Virus record (IMG/VR): IMGVR_UViG_3300017989_000071
Span: 1 to 64,000 of that record
Source: a virus
DNA: 64,000 nucleotides
Strand: one strand, 5' to 3'
Shown here: piece after piece, positions 53,333 through 62,661 of the stretch
How positions within the stretch are numbered: the first letter of the stretch is position 1
Layout of the letters: the number at the start of each line of letters is the position of its first letter
Made by a program: the position numbers and the translations under genes
Notes under the pieces: model-generated
Database searches by the model: none
Seen by the model: only the letters and a program-made list of their open reading frames with translations
What the model was told of the DNA's origin: nothing

Positions 53333-53362
53333 ATCATAATACCAAACACATACGCCAGTCAA
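53333..53362 (-). promoter_or_regulatory. Sigma70 promoter before the RusA-like gene
   Basis: TTGACT (53362-53357), 18-bp spacer, TATGAT (53338-53333) on the minus strand; TATTAT at 53341-53336 gives a 15-bp spacer alternative. The TGA in the -35 is the stop of the SbcDC-like gene. Confidence 0.7.
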
Positions 53363-56300
53363 GCCGCAAGGGCGGAAACGCCGTTCGACTTCACCACCGA
53401 AACACGATCAGGCACAAGACCACGCAGGAACGAGTGCTGCGTTACCAAAAAAACCGACAACCCTTCGTCGGCCTTCATCCGCAACACATCGGCCAATGCT
53501 TCCATCCCGGTCCGGTCGAGCTTGTCGTCGATCTCGTCGCAGACCAGAATGTTCGTTGTCAACCCGGTCGATACCCGCGCCAGCGCATTGAGAGCCAACT
53601 GGACAACCAGATCGGCCCGGCGTCGCTCCCCGGACGAACAGGCCAGATACGACTTCCCCGAAGTCAGCTCGACGGTGATCTTGTCGGTCGTCGTCTTGTC
53701 CTTCAGCTCGGTCTGCGAGTGGATCACCACCGCATCCTTCCCGATCAGCACATCCGAGTATTCGGCCAGCCGGACATTCAGGAACTCCACCGCTCCGGAA
53801 AGGAGACGCGCCCGGATACCCGTCGGAGAGAACAAACCGGCCACGATCTGCGACCGCTTCTCCTCCACCTCGGCGACCCGCTTCCGGTCCCCGGCCTTGC
53901 AACGCCGCTTATGGGCCTCTCGAACCTCCTCCTTCAGATGCTCCATCCGACTCTCAGCCGACCGGATGGACTCCCGAATCGACTGCTCCTCCTCGCCAAT
54001 CTCCGCAATCCGAGACGCACAGTCCTTCACCAGCCGCCCCAACTGATCCAAGGCAGCCTCGGCCCCGGAAACCTCCTCCATCGCCTCAGCGAGCCGATCT
54101 GACCCCTCCTCGGCGGTGTTTTCGGCATCCCTGACGGACTTATCGGCTTGCGAGATCAGTTTTTGAGCCGCTTTGACCTTCTCATCGAGGTTTTCGCGGG
54201 GTTCCACCACCTCGACCTTGATCCGGTCCTTGATGGTCTGGATCGCCTGCTCCTCCTCCTTCCACGCCGCGTTGTTCCTCGCGATCTCCTGCTCGGTGGA
54301 CTCCACGTCCCGCTTGATCCGCTCAACTTCGGCGTCGAGCTGCTCCGTGGTCTGCGGCTTCTCCGCATCCTCGGTCAACCCGGCTTCCCGATGCAGATCG
54401 TGGGCCTCGTTGAGGGGCTGAAAGCACGTCGGGCACTTCCCACCCTCGATCATCTTCCGGGCCTTCTCCTGCCGCTCGGCCAGAGCCTTGTTCGCTGTCT
54501 CGATCCGAACAACCTCCTCGCGCAGCCCATGAATCCTCAGTCGCAGATCGCCAGCCCGCTCTTGTAGATCGTTCTCTGTAACATCCAACTCCCGCTGCAC
54601 CTGCTTATGCGTCTCGATCTCCGCTTTGAGCTCTTCCTCCCGCTTGGACAGCGGACCGTATTCGAGCCTGTACTCCTCTTCCCTCTTTCGGAGATCGCTC
54701 GCCAGACCCCGCAGCCGCTCGACCTCCTTGCGATGGACCTCGGCGTGTTCCTCGCGGAGACGATTCACCTCCCCGCGTTTGGCTTCAAGCTCCTTACGGG
54801 CTTCCTCCACCCGGCCCTCGAACTCGGACCGATTGTGTTCGATGGTCTTCTTCCGTTCGGCAAGAGCTTCGACCTCCCGCCGCTTGGAATCCAAATCGCC
54901 GATCTCCTCTTCGGCGGCCTTCCACTTCTTCGTTACGCGATCCACCTCCTCATCGCGCACCTCGACCTCGGCGGAAGCAGACCCCATCTCGACCGCCGTC
55001 TTCCGCTTTCGGTCCCGCGCCAGATCGGACATTCGGTCCAGCGCGTCTAGCCCGAGGATGCTCTCGATCAGCTTCTTCCGGTCTCCATCATTCAGGTCGA
55101 TGAACCGATGCGACAGACCTTGGGTCATAATCGAAAGATGCTGTAGGGCATCGTGTGTAACCCCGAGAATCCGCAGCAGCTCGATCTGCGCATCGGCAGC
55201 CAACCGGGGAGTGATCGAATCGTCGCCGTTCTTCTCGATAGTCAAGCCGGTCTTGTAAGTCTTGTGCTTCCGGCTCCGGCGCACTAGGTAGTGATCGTCG
55301 TCGATATGAAACTCGACTTCGACCATGCAGCCCGACGCCCTCTTCGACCTCCCGTTCCGCCACCCGACATCTGCCTTAGACAACCCACGCAGCGTCCGGT
55401 CATAGAGGCACCAGAACAACGCCTCGATCAATGTGCTTTTCCCCGACCCGTTCGACATCGCACCGGGATCGTCTTGGTTCACGCCCTCGATCAGGACCAA
55501 CCCTCGGTCCCGCAAATGGAAGTAGGCTCCATCCTTGAACGACATGAAGCCCTCCATCCGCACCGAGTCGAAGCGGATATTCGAGTGCTGAACATCGCCG
55601 GTCGTGTCCTCACCGGCCTTGATAATCCCCTTGACGATCTCGACCGTTTCCTCGTCACGCCACTTCGCGTCCGTGAGGTACTGAATCGCTTCTTCCTCGA
55701 TGTTCACATCGAATCCGTACTGATCCCCCTCCTCGTCCCCCTTCTTCCGTTTGTCCTGCGAGACGCCGGGGGCGAGAATCGCCCGCTTGAACTTGGCAAG
55801 CGTTCCCTCCAGCGTTTCGATGGGATAGTTGTTATAATAATAAACCTTCACGAAGGTCCGCTTCTTGTCCTCAATCATGTCGAGGGCGTAACGCTCCTCC
55901 TCGGTCCGCACATGGACCGTCTCGTACTTCGAGTGGTGGGGACCGGGAATCCGGCGCACCTTTACCGGACCGCGCTCCTCCCACTCCACGATGTCGATCC
56001 CGCGCTCGATACCGGCGTTCTCCGAATCGGTGAAGGTGCGCGTGGTGATCGAACCGACTACCCGCGCATAGCACTCCGGCGTCGCCACCACCTGACAAGG
56101 CCGGTGGTAGTGACCGGCGAAGATGTGCTTACCGTCGGGAAACGAGTGTGGGTCGATGCCGTTGACCTCGGGAATCCCCAGATGCCGCAGCGCACCGTTG
56201 AGCGGGAGGTGCATCATCACGAGATCGTACTCGTCCGCTCGGGCGTTCGCCGCCATCACCGCCCCCTCGATGTCGTTCGTGTGGGGCATGTAGAGAATCC

Positions 56301-56679
56301 GATCCCGTATCGTCTGCGTCGGAATCACCCGATCCCGCATAAACGACAGGGTATGAATCCCCGCGTTCTCGTTGTAGACCTCGTGATTGCCGAGCAGCAG
56401 ACTGAAGTCACCGGCAGCTCCGCCCGCAACCAGCGCAACGTGCTCGCGGAAGATCATCTCCGCGACGTGCTGCGATTGCGGGTCCACGTGATCGTGGGTG
56501 TGGTAGTAGTCCCCCAACCCGATAACTAGATCGGGCTGCTCCTCGCGAATCACCTCGTGGACCCAACGGAAGATTGCCATGATCTCGTGAAGATGCGTCG
56601 TCAGCCCATCCGTTGTCGGAGACGAAAAAGCGTTATGGGGATAAATGTGGGGGTCAGCCCACAGTAATAGTTTCTTCAT
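53359..56679 (-). CDS. Single-chain Mre11/SbcD-Rad50/SbcC fusion nuclease-ATPase (1106 aa)
   Basis: Residues 1-~360 are the Mre11/SbcD (T4 gp47) part: A-D-P-H (8-11), G-L-G-D-Y-Y-H (54-60), L-L-G-N-H-E (95-100), M-M-H-L-P-L (155-160) and G-H-Y-H-R (189-193). Residues ~365-1106 are the Rad50/SbcC (gp46) part: Walker A N-G-S-G-K-S-T (410-416), long coiled coil with zinc hook C-P-T-C (749-752), signature S-S-G-E-R-R (1015-1020), Walker B I-L-V-C-D-E (1044-1049) and an H-loop V-T-Q-H (1079-1082). The complex processes DNA ends for recombination-dependent replication. In T4 and E. coli these are two genes; here they are one chain. Stop reused by a promoter. Confidence 0.9.
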   Translation of the reverse strand: MKKLLLWADPHIYPHNAFSSPTTDGLTTHLHEIMAIFRWVHEVIREEQPDLVIGLGDYYHTHDHVDPQSQHVAEMIFREHVALVAGGAAGDFSLLLGNHEVYNENAGIHTLSFMRDRVIPTQTIRDRILYMPHTNDIEGAVMAANARADEYDLVMMHLPLNGALRHLGIPEVNGIDPHSFPDGKHIFAGHYHRPCQVVATPECYARVVGSITTRTFTDSENAGIERGIDIVEWEERGPVKVRRIPGPHHSKYETVHVRTEEERYALDMIEDKKRTFVKVYYYNNYPIETLEGTLAKFKRAILAPGVSQDKRKKGDEEGDQYGFDVNIEEEAIQYLTDAKWRDEETVEIVKGIIKAGEDTTGDVQHSNIRFDSVRMEGFMSFKDGAYFHLRDRGLVLIEGVNQDDPGAMSNGSGKSTLIEALFWCLYDRTLRGLSKADVGWRNGRSKRASGCMVEVEFHIDDDHYLVRRSRKHKTYKTGLTIEKNGDDSITPRLAADAQIELLRILGVTHDALQHLSIMTQGLSHRFIDLNDGDRKKLIESILGLDALDRMSDLARDRKRKTAVEMGSASAEVEVRDEEVDRVTKKWKAAEEEIGDLDSKRREVEALAERKKTIEHNRSEFEGRVEEARKELEAKRGEVNRLREEHAEVHRKEVERLRGLASDLRKREEEYRLEYGPLSKREEELKAEIETHKQVQRELDVTENDLQERAGDLRLRIHGLREEVVRIETANKALAERQEKARKMIEGGKCPTCFQPLNEAHDLHREAGLTEDAEKPQTTEQLDAEVERIKRDVESTEQEIARNNAAWKEEEQAIQTIKDRIKVEVVEPRENLDEKVKAAQKLISQADKSVRDAENTAEEGSDRLAEAMEEVSGAEAALDQLGRLVKDCASRIAEIGEEEQSIRESIRSAESRMEHLKEEVREAHKRRCKAGDRKRVAEVEEKRSQIVAGLFSPTGIRARLLSGAVEFLNVRLAEYSDVLIGKDAVVIHSQTELKDKTTTDKITVELTSGKSYLACSSGERRRADLVVQLALNALARVSTGLTTNILVCDEIDDKLDRTGMEALADVLRMKADEGLSVFLVTQHSFLRGLVPDRVSVVKSNGVSALAA

Positions 56680-56947
56680 CGTGTGTGTCTCCTTCTACCC
56701 GAACAATCGGAACGGACGGGGGAGCATCAATCGAATACTTAACCCGCGCACCGCTTATCCGGTAGAACGTAATCCGTACAGGACCGAGCTCGATGACCGA
56801 TCCTTGAAAAAGCGTCAGGCGCATCCCGGCATAATCGACAACGACCCTCCGGTTCTCCGCGCTCAAAAACTTCAGGTAGTGCCTCCCGACCCGAACAGCG
56901 CATCCGGTCCTCCCCGTCAACCCAAGCCTACCCCGTCCGTCGTTCAT
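56654..56947 (-). CDS. Tandem CsrA-like RNA-binding protein candidate (97 aa)
   Basis: ATG 56947 overlaps the previous TGA. Residues 44-85 match CsrA: L-T-L-F-Q-G-S-V-I-E-L-G, then V-R-I-T-F-Y, V-K-Y-S-I-D-A-P-P-S-V-P-I-V-R-V-E, including the A-P-x-x-V-x-V-x-R-x-E end. Residues 10-41 (L-T-G-R-T-G-C-A-V-R-V-G ... V-V-V-D-Y-A) look like a second, more diverged unit. CsrA is a 60-aa homodimer that binds GGA sites in mRNA leaders; a single chain with two units would be a covalent dimer. Lies between exonuclease and SbcDC genes. Relation is by eye. Confidence 0.5.
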   Translation of the reverse strand: MNDGRGRLGLTGRTGCAVRVGRHYLKFLSAENRRVVVDYAGMRLTLFQGSVIELGPVRITFYRISGARVKYSIDAPPSVPIVRVEGDTHDEETITVG

Positions 56948-57861
56948 CGCCAATTCCCTCGCAAAATCCTGAACGGACCGATCCATGAAGCGAACGAATC
57001 GGAAATCTCATCCAACTCGAATCTCCGCAGAATCGGTAGCAGAGAGAGATCGACCCCGACCGACTTTCCCGCCTGAACTCGCGCCTGATACACCTCGTCG
57101 GGAGTAAACCGTTCGAGGGCGATGTCGATCAGCTTCACGTTGCGGCGGAAGATGTCTCCCTGCTCAGCAATCAGCCGAATCCGCCGGTCCTCAGACTTCG
57201 CGCAACGAGTCAGAAACCCCTCGGGGTGGTCCGCCCGAATCTCGTTGACCGCTCGGGCAGCCGTCTTCGCACCGGCACCCTTCACACCGTCAATCATATC
57301 GGACGGGTCTCCGAGAATCGCCTTGTACCAAATCAGATACTTCGGCCCCGGAACTCCGGTCCGCGTCGAGAAATCCTTCTCGGTTACCAACTCCGGCTTC
57401 ATCGGACGCCATACCGATGTCCGATCATCGACTAACTGAAGCAAGTCCTTGTCGTCGCTGACCACGATCACCTTGCCCCGCACGATGTCGCGCAGCAGGC
57501 GGATCACATCATCCCCTTCGCGGCCATCGAGGTACACCGGGCGGATTCCGAGTCGCCGGAGAATCGAGCAGCGCAGCACGGACCGCTGGAAGCTGGCCGC
57601 CTCGTACTCGGCCTGCTCCTCCTCGGTTAGCGGCGGCTTATTCTTGTAGCCGGGAAACAAGGCCAAACGGCGAGCCGAATGCCCCCGGTCGAACACCACA
57701 TAAACCTCCCGAATAGCCGGAAAACTCATCAGGAACCCATGCAGCGACCGCAGCGATCCGAGTAGCACACCCGTCTTGTAACCGTTAGAAGACAATTCCG
57801 CCAACGCCTTTACGTGCATCATTCTATACGTTAAGTAATGTCCGTCGAAGATCGCAATCAT
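56944..57861 (-). CDS. FEN/PIN-type 5'-3' exonuclease (305 aa)
   Basis: F-D-G-H-Y-L-T-Y-R (about 5-13), V-V-F-D-R-G-H-S-A-R-R (about 55-65), F-P-G-Y-K, G-R-E-G-D-D-V (about 112-118), S-D-D-K-D-L-L-Q-L (about 134-142) and D-x(3)-G-V-K-G-A-G-A-K-T-A (about 190-202, helix-hairpin-helix). Removes RNA primers and flaps in lagging-strand synthesis, like T4 RNase H. Follows the ssDNA-binding protein gene and a hairpin. Confidence 0.85.
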   Translation of the reverse strand: MIAIFDGHYLTYRMMHVKALAELSSNGYKTGVLLGSLRSLHGFLMSFPAIREVYVVFDRGHSARRLALFPGYKNKPPLTEEEQAEYEAASFQRSVLRCSILRRLGIRPVYLDGREGDDVIRLLRDIVRGKVIVVSDDKDLLQLVDDRTSVWRPMKPELVTEKDFSTRTGVPGPKYLIWYKAILGDPSDMIDGVKGAGAKTAARAVNEIRADHPEGFLTRCAKSEDRRIRLIAEQGDIFRRNVKLIDIALERFTPDEVYQARVQAGKSVGVDLSLLPILRRFELDEISDSFASWIGPFRILRGNWR

Positions 57862-59101: not shown

Positions 59102-59572
59102 CTATACGCTTTGTGACATCCCCTTCATTTCGGCGCGGGCGTTGTTCGACAACTGCTCCGCTGAACGCAATCGGGAACGGATCGCCCACGACAGCTGACT
59201 GATAAACTCGTGCGCCACGTGGAACCGATCCGCCCGCTCATCCAACCCGGCAAACTCGGGATCGTTCCGTGCCGCTGTATCCACCCGCCATTGAGGATTC
59301 TTGTCGTGACGGCTACCGGCATTCGTAAAGACGATCTGATGATAGGCCAAGTCCGCCGCCCGACGAGCTTTGCGCGACATCCACAGATACTTCCCGAGGA
59401 GGTATCCCATCATCGCTTCCATCTCTCCCTGCTTTCGGAACGCCTCATCGAGGTTGTCTCCGATATAGATGTCGTCGATAAGCTGTAAGACAATTTCCCG
59501 GTCCTCTTCGAGCAGGGCGGGAATCGCCTCTTCCTCCATTAGTTTAGATTTCAACAAATCCCCGTAATTCAT
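59102..59572 (-). CDS. Helical protein between polymerase and SSB genes (156 aa)
   Basis: ATG 59572 overlaps the polymerase TGA (ATGA). Fully helical, charged (M-N-Y-G-D-L-L-K-S-K-L-M-E-E-E; S-A-I-R-S-R-L-R-S-A-E-Q-L). Size and position recall a recombination-mediator (UvsY-like) role, but there is no sequence proof. Confidence 0.55.
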   Translation of the reverse strand: MNYGDLLKSKLMEEEAIPALLEEDREIVLQLIDDIYIGDNLDEAFRKQGEMEAMMGYLLGKYLWMSRKARRAADLAYHQIVFTNAGSRHDKNPQWRVDTAARNDPEFAGLDERADRFHVAHEFISQLSWAIRSRLRSAEQLSNNARAEMKGMSQSV

Positions 59573-62500
59573 GCGGCCTCCGCTGTTTTCGGGTGCAGCC
59601 GAGGAGTGAAGCGGTACTCGTCGATGAACTCTACATTCTCCTCGAACTCGGGAATCTCGCACTCGACGATCAACTTCTCCTCGGTATGCAGATATGTAAA
59701 CTCGACATCGCAGGGCCAGCCCCGCATCACATCGAGCACCTTCTTCATATTTGACGACACGTCGTGCTCGCACTTCAGGCGCAAGCCACGGCGACCGTCG
59801 GACAGCAGCTCCGCATCAACCATCTCGCCCCACGAGGTTCCAACCTCGAAGTCGATCTCCAGCGGAACCGTCAAGTGCTCCTTGAACCGCTCGACCAAAT
59901 CGTCAACCATGCAGCGGGACGCCAGCTCGATGTAGTCAACCACCTCGGAGCCGGGGCAGTCCGCCTCGAACGAATCGTGAATGAAGCCCCAAATCACTGT
60001 CCACATATCCTCTCCCCGAACCGCATCGAAGAGCATCTGCAACGCCAGTGTCGCCCAATCGCTCGATCCCCCCTGAATTGGGGTATTCATTGCCTGACGC
60101 TCAGCCGACGACCGTTTGTATTGGTTCTTACTATAAATGTCCGGAAGCAGCCGACGCGACCCGAGGCTGGTCCACACCGCACCGTGCTCTTTCAGAATCG
60201 CGGACTGCTTGTCCCACAACTCCCTCAGCCCCGGAAACTCCCGGAAGATACCCTCTTGGAAAAGCTTGGCCTCTTCAAGAGTAATCCCGTACATGTCCGC
60301 GATCCCCGGTGGACCCGCCCCGTACATCGTCCCGAAATTGGCTGCCTTCGCACCGCGCCGCTCATCGCCCGTTACCGCCTCCAGAGCCTTCTTCAGAATC
60401 CGGGCCGCCGACGTGCGGTGAATGTCCAGACCGATCAGGAAGATTTCCATCATGTTCGCGTCGCCGGACAACCGGCAGCCGTCACGCAACTCCATCTGGC
60501 CGTAATCGACAACGACGAGCAGTCCGCCCTTGAAGCGGGTCTTGTAAACACTCTTCGCACCGCCGCGAAACGGGATCGTCTGGATCGGGGGGTCGTTCGC
60601 CGACCACCGCCCTGTACCTGTCGTCCGCACACCCCAATTCGCGTGAGCGCATCCGTCGTATCCGGTCAGGTCGGGAAGTGGCTTTAGGTAGCTCGAATAA
60701 TTCTTGCCGACCTTCTTCCACAGCAACAACTTCTCCAGCATCTCGGCGCAACGCTCGCAGAACTCCTTCACCTCGGGATCGTCGGACTTTTTCCCCCGGT
60801 CCCGAATCCAAACCTCCATCCGGGAAAGCACATCCTTCTCGGTGCTACCCTGCAACACCCGACCGTCGGGCTGGCGGAAATTTCTCCGGGTCAACGAATT
60901 TTTCGGGTCGGCGGTCTTGTCGGTAAAATGATTTCCCATATAAGGAAGACCGAGAACGCCGTGGATCAGGAAATTCAAACTGACCCACGACCCCAATCCG
61001 AGCTTGTAGTTGTACTGCTCCTCCACCGCTGCGTCGTAACCCTCATCCCGAAACCAATCCCGAATCTCGGTCAACTCCTCTACCGCCGCGTCCGCGACTT
61101 CCTTGTTTCGTTCAAGATCGACATACACCCCGGAAACGCGCATCCACAGCGCAAAGGTGTGGCTGTTCATCGTCAGCATCTCGAAAGGTTCGAGCAGATT
61201 CTCCTCCTCCAGCAGCTCCCGCTGAATCGGAACCAGACGTGCCGTAGAGATCGCATCGAAGCAGGCATACTCGACGAAGATTTCATACTCTACATCCTCG
61301 TAAGGATCAGCCCCCTTCGGCAGCTCCGCTTGCGCCTCGTGCATCCGCTCCTTCGGATGCAGCATACCCGCCCATCGCGTCGCCATGTAATCCAAATCGT
61401 GAGGCTCGGTGTCGTTCGTCAGGGACCAACCGGCCAGCATCGTATCGTGGAACAAACCGGGAGCTAGACCGCGCCCCCTCCACATCGGTATCCACACCTT
61501 CGTCCGGGCAACGAACGCCGTCTGATCGTACTGGAAATTCTGACCGGCGACAGGCACCGTCCGGAATAAACGGGTGAGGTGGTGGTCGATAGCTTGTCGG
61601 GATAGAGCATCGTTGGCGAACGGAGATAACTTATGCTGATACGGAATATAGAGCGGAACCGAGTCGGTATGCGCCTCGACTCCCCCGCCCGCCTTACCCC
61701 CGCAAACTGTCACGCACAGCATCTTCCACGTTGGGTGAAAGATTTCCAGACCTCCATCCTCGCCCTTACTCGTTGCCTCGATGTCCACCGCAACGAAGTC
61801 GATCTCGCCCTTGGCGTACCGCTCCAGATACGTGTCCACTGCCGCCTCGACCTTACCGAGCGTGTCTCCGTGGTTGATCCCCAGATCGGTCTTCTCCCCC
61901 GACACGCGGCGTCGAACCATCGCCAAGTCTTCGAGGATCATCTGCTCGTACTGCACATTCCCCCGGAGAACCGCCGAGGGATGAATCGTTGGAATGACCG
62001 TGTAGGAATGGGTGATCCCGTCGAGCTCGAACGTCAGGTCCATCTTCCGACCGTGAACCGTTGTAATCTTCTGCTTCGATCCGGTCAGCCCGTTCAACGA
62101 AACCCCGCCAACCGCAACGATCACTTCGGGATCGTGCTTAACGATCTCCCGCAACACGTAAGGCCGACACGCGCTGATCTCGCTCGGCGACGGCTTCGGG
62201 TTACTCCGCACACCCAGCGGGCAGCAGCGGACCACGTTCGAGAAGCGGACCCACTCCAGCGGTATCTCTGAATCCGCCAGATATTCCCGCAACTTCTTCC
62301 CCGCCGGGCCGACGAACGGCTCCCCTTCGCGGTCCTCTACCTGACCCGGAGCCTCCCCAATCAGCATGACCTTCGGCTTCTCCGCGCCCGATCCGTACAT
62401 CTTGATCGTCGTCGCCCCCTCGGACAACGAACACCGCTCGCACGGTCCGGGCGTCAGGTCCGGTATTTCGTCGCCGGAGCAGAAGGAGCACAAATAGGAC

Positions 62501-62661
62501 TCGTCGCGGACATCTCCGTCGAGAGGAAAAAGAAGCGGATGGGATTCGATGTAGGCCATGCAGTCCGCACAGCCGATATGGACCATCCCATCCTCGGGAA
62601 ACGGCAGGACGTTCTTTCGGCGGTCCTTCTTCGCTGCCTTCTTTTTCTTCGGTTTCGCCAT
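59569..62661 (-). CDS. polA: Family-4 uracil-DNA glycosylase fused to DNA polymerase A (1030 aa)
   Basis: N-terminal Cys pairs (C31/C34, C58/C61) then a UDG4 domain: C74/C77, G-E-A-P-G-Q-V-E-D (102-110), P-F-V-G-P-A-G (115-121), R-C-C-P (145-148), C165 and H-P-S-A-V-L (227-232); the Cys set would bind 4Fe-4S. Then 3'-5' exonuclease: D293/E295 (D-I-E-A), N-F-Q-Y-D (375-379), Y465...D469. Polymerase: motif A V-D-Y-G-Q-M-E-L-R (718-726), motif B R-R-G-A-K-A-A-N-F-G-T-M-Y-G (768-781), motif C H-D-S-F-E-A (895-900). This is the replicative polymerase. I recall a similar fusion in SPO1-type phages. The catalytic pattern appears intact in both halves. Confidence 0.9.
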   Translation of the reverse strand: MAKPKKKKAAKKDRRKNVLPFPEDGMVHIGCADCMAYIESHPLLFPLDGDVRDESYLCSFCSGDEIPDLTPGPCERCSLSEGATTIKMYGSGAEKPKVMLIGEAPGQVEDREGEPFVGPAGKKLREYLADSEIPLEWVRFSNVVRCCPLGVRSNPKPSPSEISACRPYVLREIVKHDPEVIVAVGGVSLNGLTGSKQKITTVHGRKMDLTFELDGITHSYTVIPTIHPSAVLRGNVQYEQMILEDLAMVRRRVSGEKTDLGINHGDTLGKVEAAVDTYLERYAKGEIDFVAVDIEATSKGEDGGLEIFHPTWKMLCVTVCGGKAGGGVEAHTDSVPLYIPYQHKLSPFANDALSRQAIDHHLTRLFRTVPVAGQNFQYDQTAFVARTKVWIPMWRGRGLAPGLFHDTMLAGWSLTNDTEPHDLDYMATRWAGMLHPKERMHEAQAELPKGADPYEDVEYEIFVEYACFDAISTARLVPIQRELLEEENLLEPFEMLTMNSHTFALWMRVSGVYVDLERNKEVADAAVEELTEIRDWFRDEGYDAAVEEQYNYKLGLGSWVSLNFLIHGVLGLPYMGNHFTDKTADPKNSLTRRNFRQPDGRVLQGSTEKDVLSRMEVWIRDRGKKSDDPEVKEFCERCAEMLEKLLLWKKVGKNYSSYLKPLPDLTGYDGCAHANWGVRTTGTGRWSANDPPIQTIPFRGGAKSVYKTRFKGGLLVVVDYGQMELRDGCRLSGDANMMEIFLIGLDIHRTSAARILKKALEAVTGDERRGAKAANFGTMYGAGPPGIADMYGITLEEAKLFQEGIFREFPGLRELWDKQSAILKEHGAVWTSLGSRRLLPDIYSKNQYKRSSAERQAMNTPIQGGSSDWATLALQMLFDAVRGEDMWTVIWGFIHDSFEADCPGSEVVDYIELASRCMVDDLVERFKEHLTVPLEIDFEVGTSWGEMVDAELLSDGRRGLRLKCEHDVSSNMKKVLDVMRGWPCDVEFTYLHTEEKLIVECEIPEFEENVEFIDEYRFTPRLHPKTAEAA

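Follow-up and report, generated by a model that had tools for sequence, protein, structure and literature searches.

CsrA is the textbook example of a protein that must form a strand-swapped dimer, with two RNA sites; beta1 and beta5 of each chain lie on either side of strands beta2, beta3 and beta4 of its partner. Bridging of two GGA sites by such a dimer is held to account for strong CsrA repression. The chains of the CsrA/RsmA/RsmE family (PF02599) are ~60 aa long, with five strands and a C-terminal helix, and assemble as homodimers with two identical RNA sites. The sheet order in RsmA is beta5A-beta2B-beta3B-beta4B-beta1A (PMC3791407); in CsrA, beta1 of one monomer and beta5 of the other form the RNA surface, L4 and R44 are critical residues, and glgC is fully repressed only if the dimer has both RNA pockets (PMC7652899). 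RNA contacts involve Thr5A, Arg6A, Arg44B and Glu46B (PMC4005645). A rearranged CsrA that keeps the RNA sheet is represented by RsmN/RsmF of Pseudomonas aeruginosa (PDB 4K59, 4KJI), in which an inserted helix separates beta2 from beta3 while the protein remains a two-site homodimer (PMC3791407). CsrA is also found on mobile elements, including 30 of 2517 phages (PMC7366521), and the plasmid protein RsmQ acts directly on host mRNAs (PMC9928087).

A window of 64,000 nucleotides, part of a 117,644-base IMG/VR virus record, contains a gene for a CsrA-like protein that likewise belongs to a mobile element, but whose 97 residues are predicted to form a double unit, whereas the phage CsrAs of phrog_9500 and phrog_8397 are single-domain proteins of ~60 aa. 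Residues 42-85 align to the CsrA/RsmA/RsmE family and keep the APxxVxIxRxE strand, the beta1 Leu/Thr and the counterpart of Arg44. In place of five strands and a helix, however, nine strands are predicted in one chain, and since the first copy appears to lack beta5, one RNA site per molecule would be expected instead of two. Like RsmN, the protein would be a rearranged CsrA, but through tandem fusion; the RsmN-type helix insert is absent from the AlphaFold2 (AF2) model, in which strands 17-20/23-31 and 51-54/57-65 are joined by short turns. The protein is CsrA-derived and not a standard CsrA, as it falls short of the family cut-off and departs, by prediction, from both the domain plan and the two-site arrangement.

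Genomic context of the CsrA-like gene

The preliminary description of this DNA had proposed a covalent double CsrA-like protein encoded at this position, and the gene is a real ORF, judging from its start context and coding usage (Table 1). Positive coding potential across its extent is confined to one of the six frames, that of the CsrA-like ORF, where the two halves score 0.087 and 0.127. The gene is tightly packed between its neighbors: its ATG overlaps the stop codon of the exonuclease gene as ATGA, and its 3' end is overlapped by the start of the fused SbcD-SbcC gene by 26 nt. ANGGA is present in many Shine-Dalgarno sequences, and the AAGGAG that precedes the SbcCD start contains one such element, AAGGA, as a candidate site.

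Table 1. Features of the CsrA-like locus, in window coordinates.
Feature	Position	Strand	Basis
Single-chain double CsrA-like gene, 97 aa	56654..56947	-	ORF; coding codon usage of both halves, in this frame only
Shine-Dalgarno GAGGGA of CsrA-like gene	56955..56960	-	7 nt 5' of ATG at 56947; read directly
5'-3' exonuclease (flap nuclease), upstream neighbor	56944..57861	-	Pfam 5_3_exonuc_N E=5.4e-20
SbcD-SbcC fused in one 1106-aa ORF, downstream neighbor	53359..56679	-	phrog_77 E=4.7e-98, phrog_100 E=6e-21
Shine-Dalgarno AAGGAG of SbcCD, within CsrA-like gene end	56689..56694	-	contains AAGGA (ANGGA); candidate site
Copy 1, residues 8-41, predicted CsrA beta1-beta4, without beta5	56825..56926	-	AF2; internal repeat at offset 34
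beta1 of copy 1, L10-T11-G12-R13 (CsrA L4-T5-R6-R7); putative half of RNA site	56909..56920	-	repeat alignment
Copy 2, residues 42-85, predicted CsrA beta1-beta5	56693..56824	-	Pfam E=1.2e-5, own profile 36.3 bits, AF2
beta5 of copy 2, APPSVPIVRVE, residues 75-85; putative half of RNA site	56693..56725	-	alignments

The surrounding minus-strand run encodes a primase-like protein, a uracil-DNA glycosylase (UDG)-DNA polymerase A, a 379-aa protein that matches no Pfam or PHROG family, the 5'-3' exonuclease, the CsrA-like protein, SbcD-SbcC, a RusA-like protein and terminase. The polymerase is itself a fusion, a single ORF (59569-62661, minus strand) that joins an N-terminal uracil-DNA glycosylase domain to DNA polymerase A. 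The SbcD-SbcC fusion recurs in a distantly related contig (L014, 6960-9815).

By exonuclease and SbcCD, L014 is the nearest kin of this phage, and the same pair occurs there without a CsrA-like gene, which is thus not a fixed part of the block; no such gene adjoins the SbcCD-like pair of a further contig (L118) either. T5 D14, which lies between the SbcC-like D13 and the D15 flap nuclease, was considered as a positional counterpart and rejected, being a PDDEXK endonuclease with no similarity.

Sequence and predicted fold of the two halves

The second half is CsrA-like by sequence comparison. It matches the Pfam CsrA family (E=1.2e-5) with 25.6-26.1 bits, narrowly missing the curated cut-off of 27 bits, and reaches 36.3 bits against our own profile built from 15 CsrA sequences. 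NCBIfam CsrA gives E=0.005-0.08 for this half, and phrog_8397 ('CsrA-like regulator'), the nearest single-domain PHROG by sequence, gives E=0.0022 with the 97-aa protein and 6.7e-4 with the second half alone. In pairwise comparisons with single CsrAs, BLOSUM z-scores are 6-9, and none of 2000 shuffles reaches the observed score. The beta5 RNA-binding motif is present, and the alignments equate V79, I81, R83 and E85 with V40, V42, R44 and E46 of CsrA. The preliminary description had seen the CsrA consensus in this half and had named the lack of a CsrA profile hit as grounds for abandoning the idea; the Pfam match and the presence of A-P-x-x-V-x-I-x-R-x-E as APPSVPIVRVE uphold its reading.

The first half was described as a diverged copy, and here the evidence is divided. 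On its own it has no match in the family libraries (Pfam, NCBIfam, PHROG), scores -0.7 bits against our CsrA profile, and is no closer to CsrAs in pairwise comparisons than expected by chance. The sequence nevertheless contains an internal repeat at an offset of 34, in which residues 8-41 align ungapped to residues 42-75 with 7 of 34 positions identical (z=3.7). All 12 best repeat windows fall at this offset, for which shuffles give p=0.0006, or p=0.045 when all offsets of 20 or more are considered. The identities lie partly at positions conserved in CsrA, namely a Leu-Thr, two Gly, a Phe and an Arg-Val. Counterparts of the beta1 residues Leu4 and Thr5 are kept in both copies (L10-T11 and L44-T45), and the position of Arg6 is occupied by G12 in copy 1 and L46 in copy 2. 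With this repeat and the predicted structure combined, though unproven by sequence alone, the first half looks like a diverged CsrA copy.

Structure prediction, which had been proposed as a check, yields a CsrA-like arrangement with good confidence. The AF2 model of the 97-aa protein, made from the single sequence without homologues, has a mean pLDDT of 83.4 and a pTM of 0.73, with pLDDT of ~87-92 across copy 1. Its nine strands in the CsrA region follow a 4+5 pattern, in which beta1-beta4 of copy 1 (6-13, 17-20, 23-31 and 34-39) are followed by beta1-beta5 of copy 2 (42-47, 51-54, 57-65, 68-75 and 81-84), and the C-terminal helix is absent. Strand starts recur at the offset of the sequence repeat (17 to 51, 23 to 57 and 34 to 68). 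As a control, a 59-aa phage CsrA (L057) was modeled by the same procedure; beta2, beta3, beta4 and the C-terminal helix are formed, and beta1 and beta5 are absent, in keeping with a swapped dimer deprived of its partner chain. Unlike this control, the double chain forms beta1 and beta5 strands within one chain in its model; of all the observations, this speaks most clearly for two copies that complete each other, presumably by pairing of these strands. The idea of a covalent double CsrA is thereby retained as a predicted covalent pseudo-dimer, but not as two full copies, the predicted content being beta1-beta4 plus beta1-beta5.

Several explanations other than a pseudo-dimer have to be considered for these data. 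An ordinary CsrA, copy 2, might bear an unrelated N-terminal extension and form the usual dimer through copy 2; CsrA profiles recognize copy 2 only, and many phage CsrAs are single. This arrangement is quite unlikely, as it leaves aside the offset-34 repeat, the confidently modeled strands of copy 1, spaced as in copy 2, the absence of the C-terminal helix and the other viral proteins, described below, whose folds match over the full length. It is very improbable that translation starts internally at M42 to give a 56-aa classical CsrA, with the first half outside the product: M42 is close to the CsrA beginning, but the nearest GGAGG, at ~21 nt, is too distant to serve its ATG. The first ATG, by comparison, follows GAGGGA by 7 nt and shares bases with the stop codon of the exonuclease gene, and codon usage in the first half is that of coding sequence. 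Equally hard to credit is a chance likeness to CsrA in a small beta protein of another kind (SH3, FHA, OB or similar). The Pfam score is just under its cut-off, and the best matches in a Foldseek search of the PDB are poor and unrelated; against this stand the Pfam E-value, the shuffles that never reach the observed score, and a top viral fold match named carbon storage regulator. A fold such as FHA or SH3, which the preliminary description had named as the outcome that would overturn its interpretation, was encountered in neither Pfam nor the PDB.

A further alternative accepts the CsrA fold and assigns it another use, as a scaffold that has lost GGA-RNA binding and acts as a small partner or stabilizer of the exonuclease or SbcCD, or has another nucleic-acid role. 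The gene sits between the flap exonuclease and SbcCD genes, with which it is coupled in translation; just one RNA site would be left, with Gly as the R6 counterpart; and leaders show no enrichment of GGA sites. However, the four RNA-contact positions of beta5 (V79, I81, R83, E85) and the beta1 Leu-Thr are all kept in the predicted composite site, a retention hardly expected of a repurposed scaffold, and the exonuclease-SbcCD pair of L014 lacks the gene, which is therefore not a needed part of that machine. A scaffold role is unlikely on this evidence. The points that weigh against an RNA-binding pseudo-dimer itself are the -0.7 bits of copy 1, the repeat p-value of 0.045 over offsets, the Gly at the R6 position, the Pfam score 1.4 bits short, the derivation of the model from a single sequence and the leaders that are not enriched in GGA. 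With these included, a CsrA pseudo-dimer fold is likely, and the fold jointly with monovalent RNA binding is, on balance, just probable.

Fold neighbors and sequence relatives

Foldseek comparison of the model with the PDB returned no match at E 0.001, as expected if the protein is a pseudo-dimer, since single chains of a swapped dimer would not match one. In contrast, comparison with viral models in BFVD gave 11 matches at E<0.001 and 18 at probability 1.00, with TM (query) of up to 0.72. Most of the matched proteins are 81-118 aa in length and are aligned over nearly their whole length, and the top match is an uncultured tailed phage protein of 114 aa that is named 'Carbon storage regulator'. 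Near full-length fold matches with target TM of 0.61-0.83 and probability 1.00 include A0A6J5RUQ1, A0A6G5YD98, A0A2I7QSD7 and A0A2H4PHU8; identity between the BFVD matches and the CsrA-like protein is 19-29%, a likeness known by predicted fold only. The single-CsrA control L057 has no BFVD match at E<0.001, so other viral proteins probably have this double format as well, so far unnoticed. This points to a mostly unnamed group of viral proteins that sequence searches do not recognize as CsrA relatives. The format had been put forward as new. It has no solved counterpart structure in the PDB, and no paper on a tandem or double CsrA was found in a literature search that mostly covered sources other than subscription journals; the fold, however, is not unique, as at least 11 viral models share it, and CsrA as such is already known from phages and plasmids.

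Sequence searches were less productive. No independent relatives were identified in scans of viral contigs and genomes or by tblastn against phage and plasmid sequences. The sole match is to the same phage (L002 and others), with 100% identical DNA over 10-13 kb, and these contigs therefore add no independent evidence. Viral contigs scanned by pattern yielded single CsrAs but no double one. The family phrog_21293 (97 positions), possibly another of this kind, aligns to residues 12-89, nearly the full length, at a weak E=0.025-0.033. Its profile has no match in 399 Pseudomonadota genomes; phrog_23332, a candidate double, gave only three weak matches, inside ORFs of 818-1133 aa, and neither profile matched T4, T5, N4, KVP40, pVp-1, Ea35-70, CcrColossus or RHph. 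Among other candidates, a tblastn match in Lacusarx falls within an ORF that carries a DNA polymerase A-like motif, matches in RHph and Stenotrophomonas are antisense to an integrase gene or within a tail protein, and these were dismissed as chance; a short match in a 431-aa ORF of Pseudomonas viridiflava was taken as chance as well. Phage CsrAs align to two families of unknown function, phrog_23332 (160 positions) and phrog_34611 (87 positions), at positions ~43-84 and 38-80, respectively, with E of 0.006-0.17. By these alignments, both are possible further double CsrA-like families.

Putative origin, RNA binding and targets

A pseudo-dimer of this kind could have arisen by tandem duplication of an ancestral CsrA, after which copy 1 would have lost beta5 and the helix, with a two-residue turn linking its beta4 to beta1 of copy 2. 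Strands beta4 and beta1 are neighbors in one sheet of the CsrA dimer. The nine-stranded chain would then fold alone, as a self-contained unit. One composite RNA site may be kept, consisting of copy 1 beta1 (L10, T11, R13) and copy 2 beta5 (V79, I81, R83, E85); the second site would require beta5 of copy 1, which the turn replaces, and would be lost. We infer this sheet pairing, as well as RNA binding, monovalency in the cell and the nature of the targets.

The protein may thus function as a monovalent binder of GGA-type RNA that is made together with the replication and repair genes. It could repress single sites of phage or host, or compete with bivalent host CsrA without bridging two GGA sites. 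Given the requirement of glgC for both pockets (PMC7652899), the protein would repress targets with two sites less strongly and might compete with the CsrA of the host. A tentative and rather doubtful extension is that one-site single-chain CsrA pseudo-dimers form a scattered, unrecognized phage family of monovalent competitors that undo or redirect host Csr control in infection. A natural single-chain CsrA with one site would allow fold, valency and repression to be told apart in a single protein, and would also serve as a convenient monovalent tool.

Regulation of phage mRNAs with GGA-rich leaders, which the preliminary description had raised, finds no support in the genome, and the seizure of host post-transcriptional control that it also raised is conjectural. 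Outside the Shine-Dalgarno region, ANGGA occurs 10 times in 48 phage leaders versus 9.6 expected from genes, which is no enrichment, and the leaders of the two adjacent starts, among them that of SbcCD, fold no better than shuffles. Rfam has no match in the window.

Other phages provide additional examples of csrA arrangements. In BcepMigl, Parlo, Itty13 and PEp14 (L053, L071, L072 and L073), a divergent CsrA-like gene of phrog_8397 is located just before the major capsid gene, with a gap of ~95-112 nt to the capsid start, and this gene may control capsid synthesis. Pseudomonas phage F116 (L070) has two csrA genes, one divergent and situated among structural genes, the other host-like and located elsewhere. 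Two different csrA genes are also present in contig L088 (IMGVR_UViG_3300049009_000874), where they lie a few kb apart on opposite strands.
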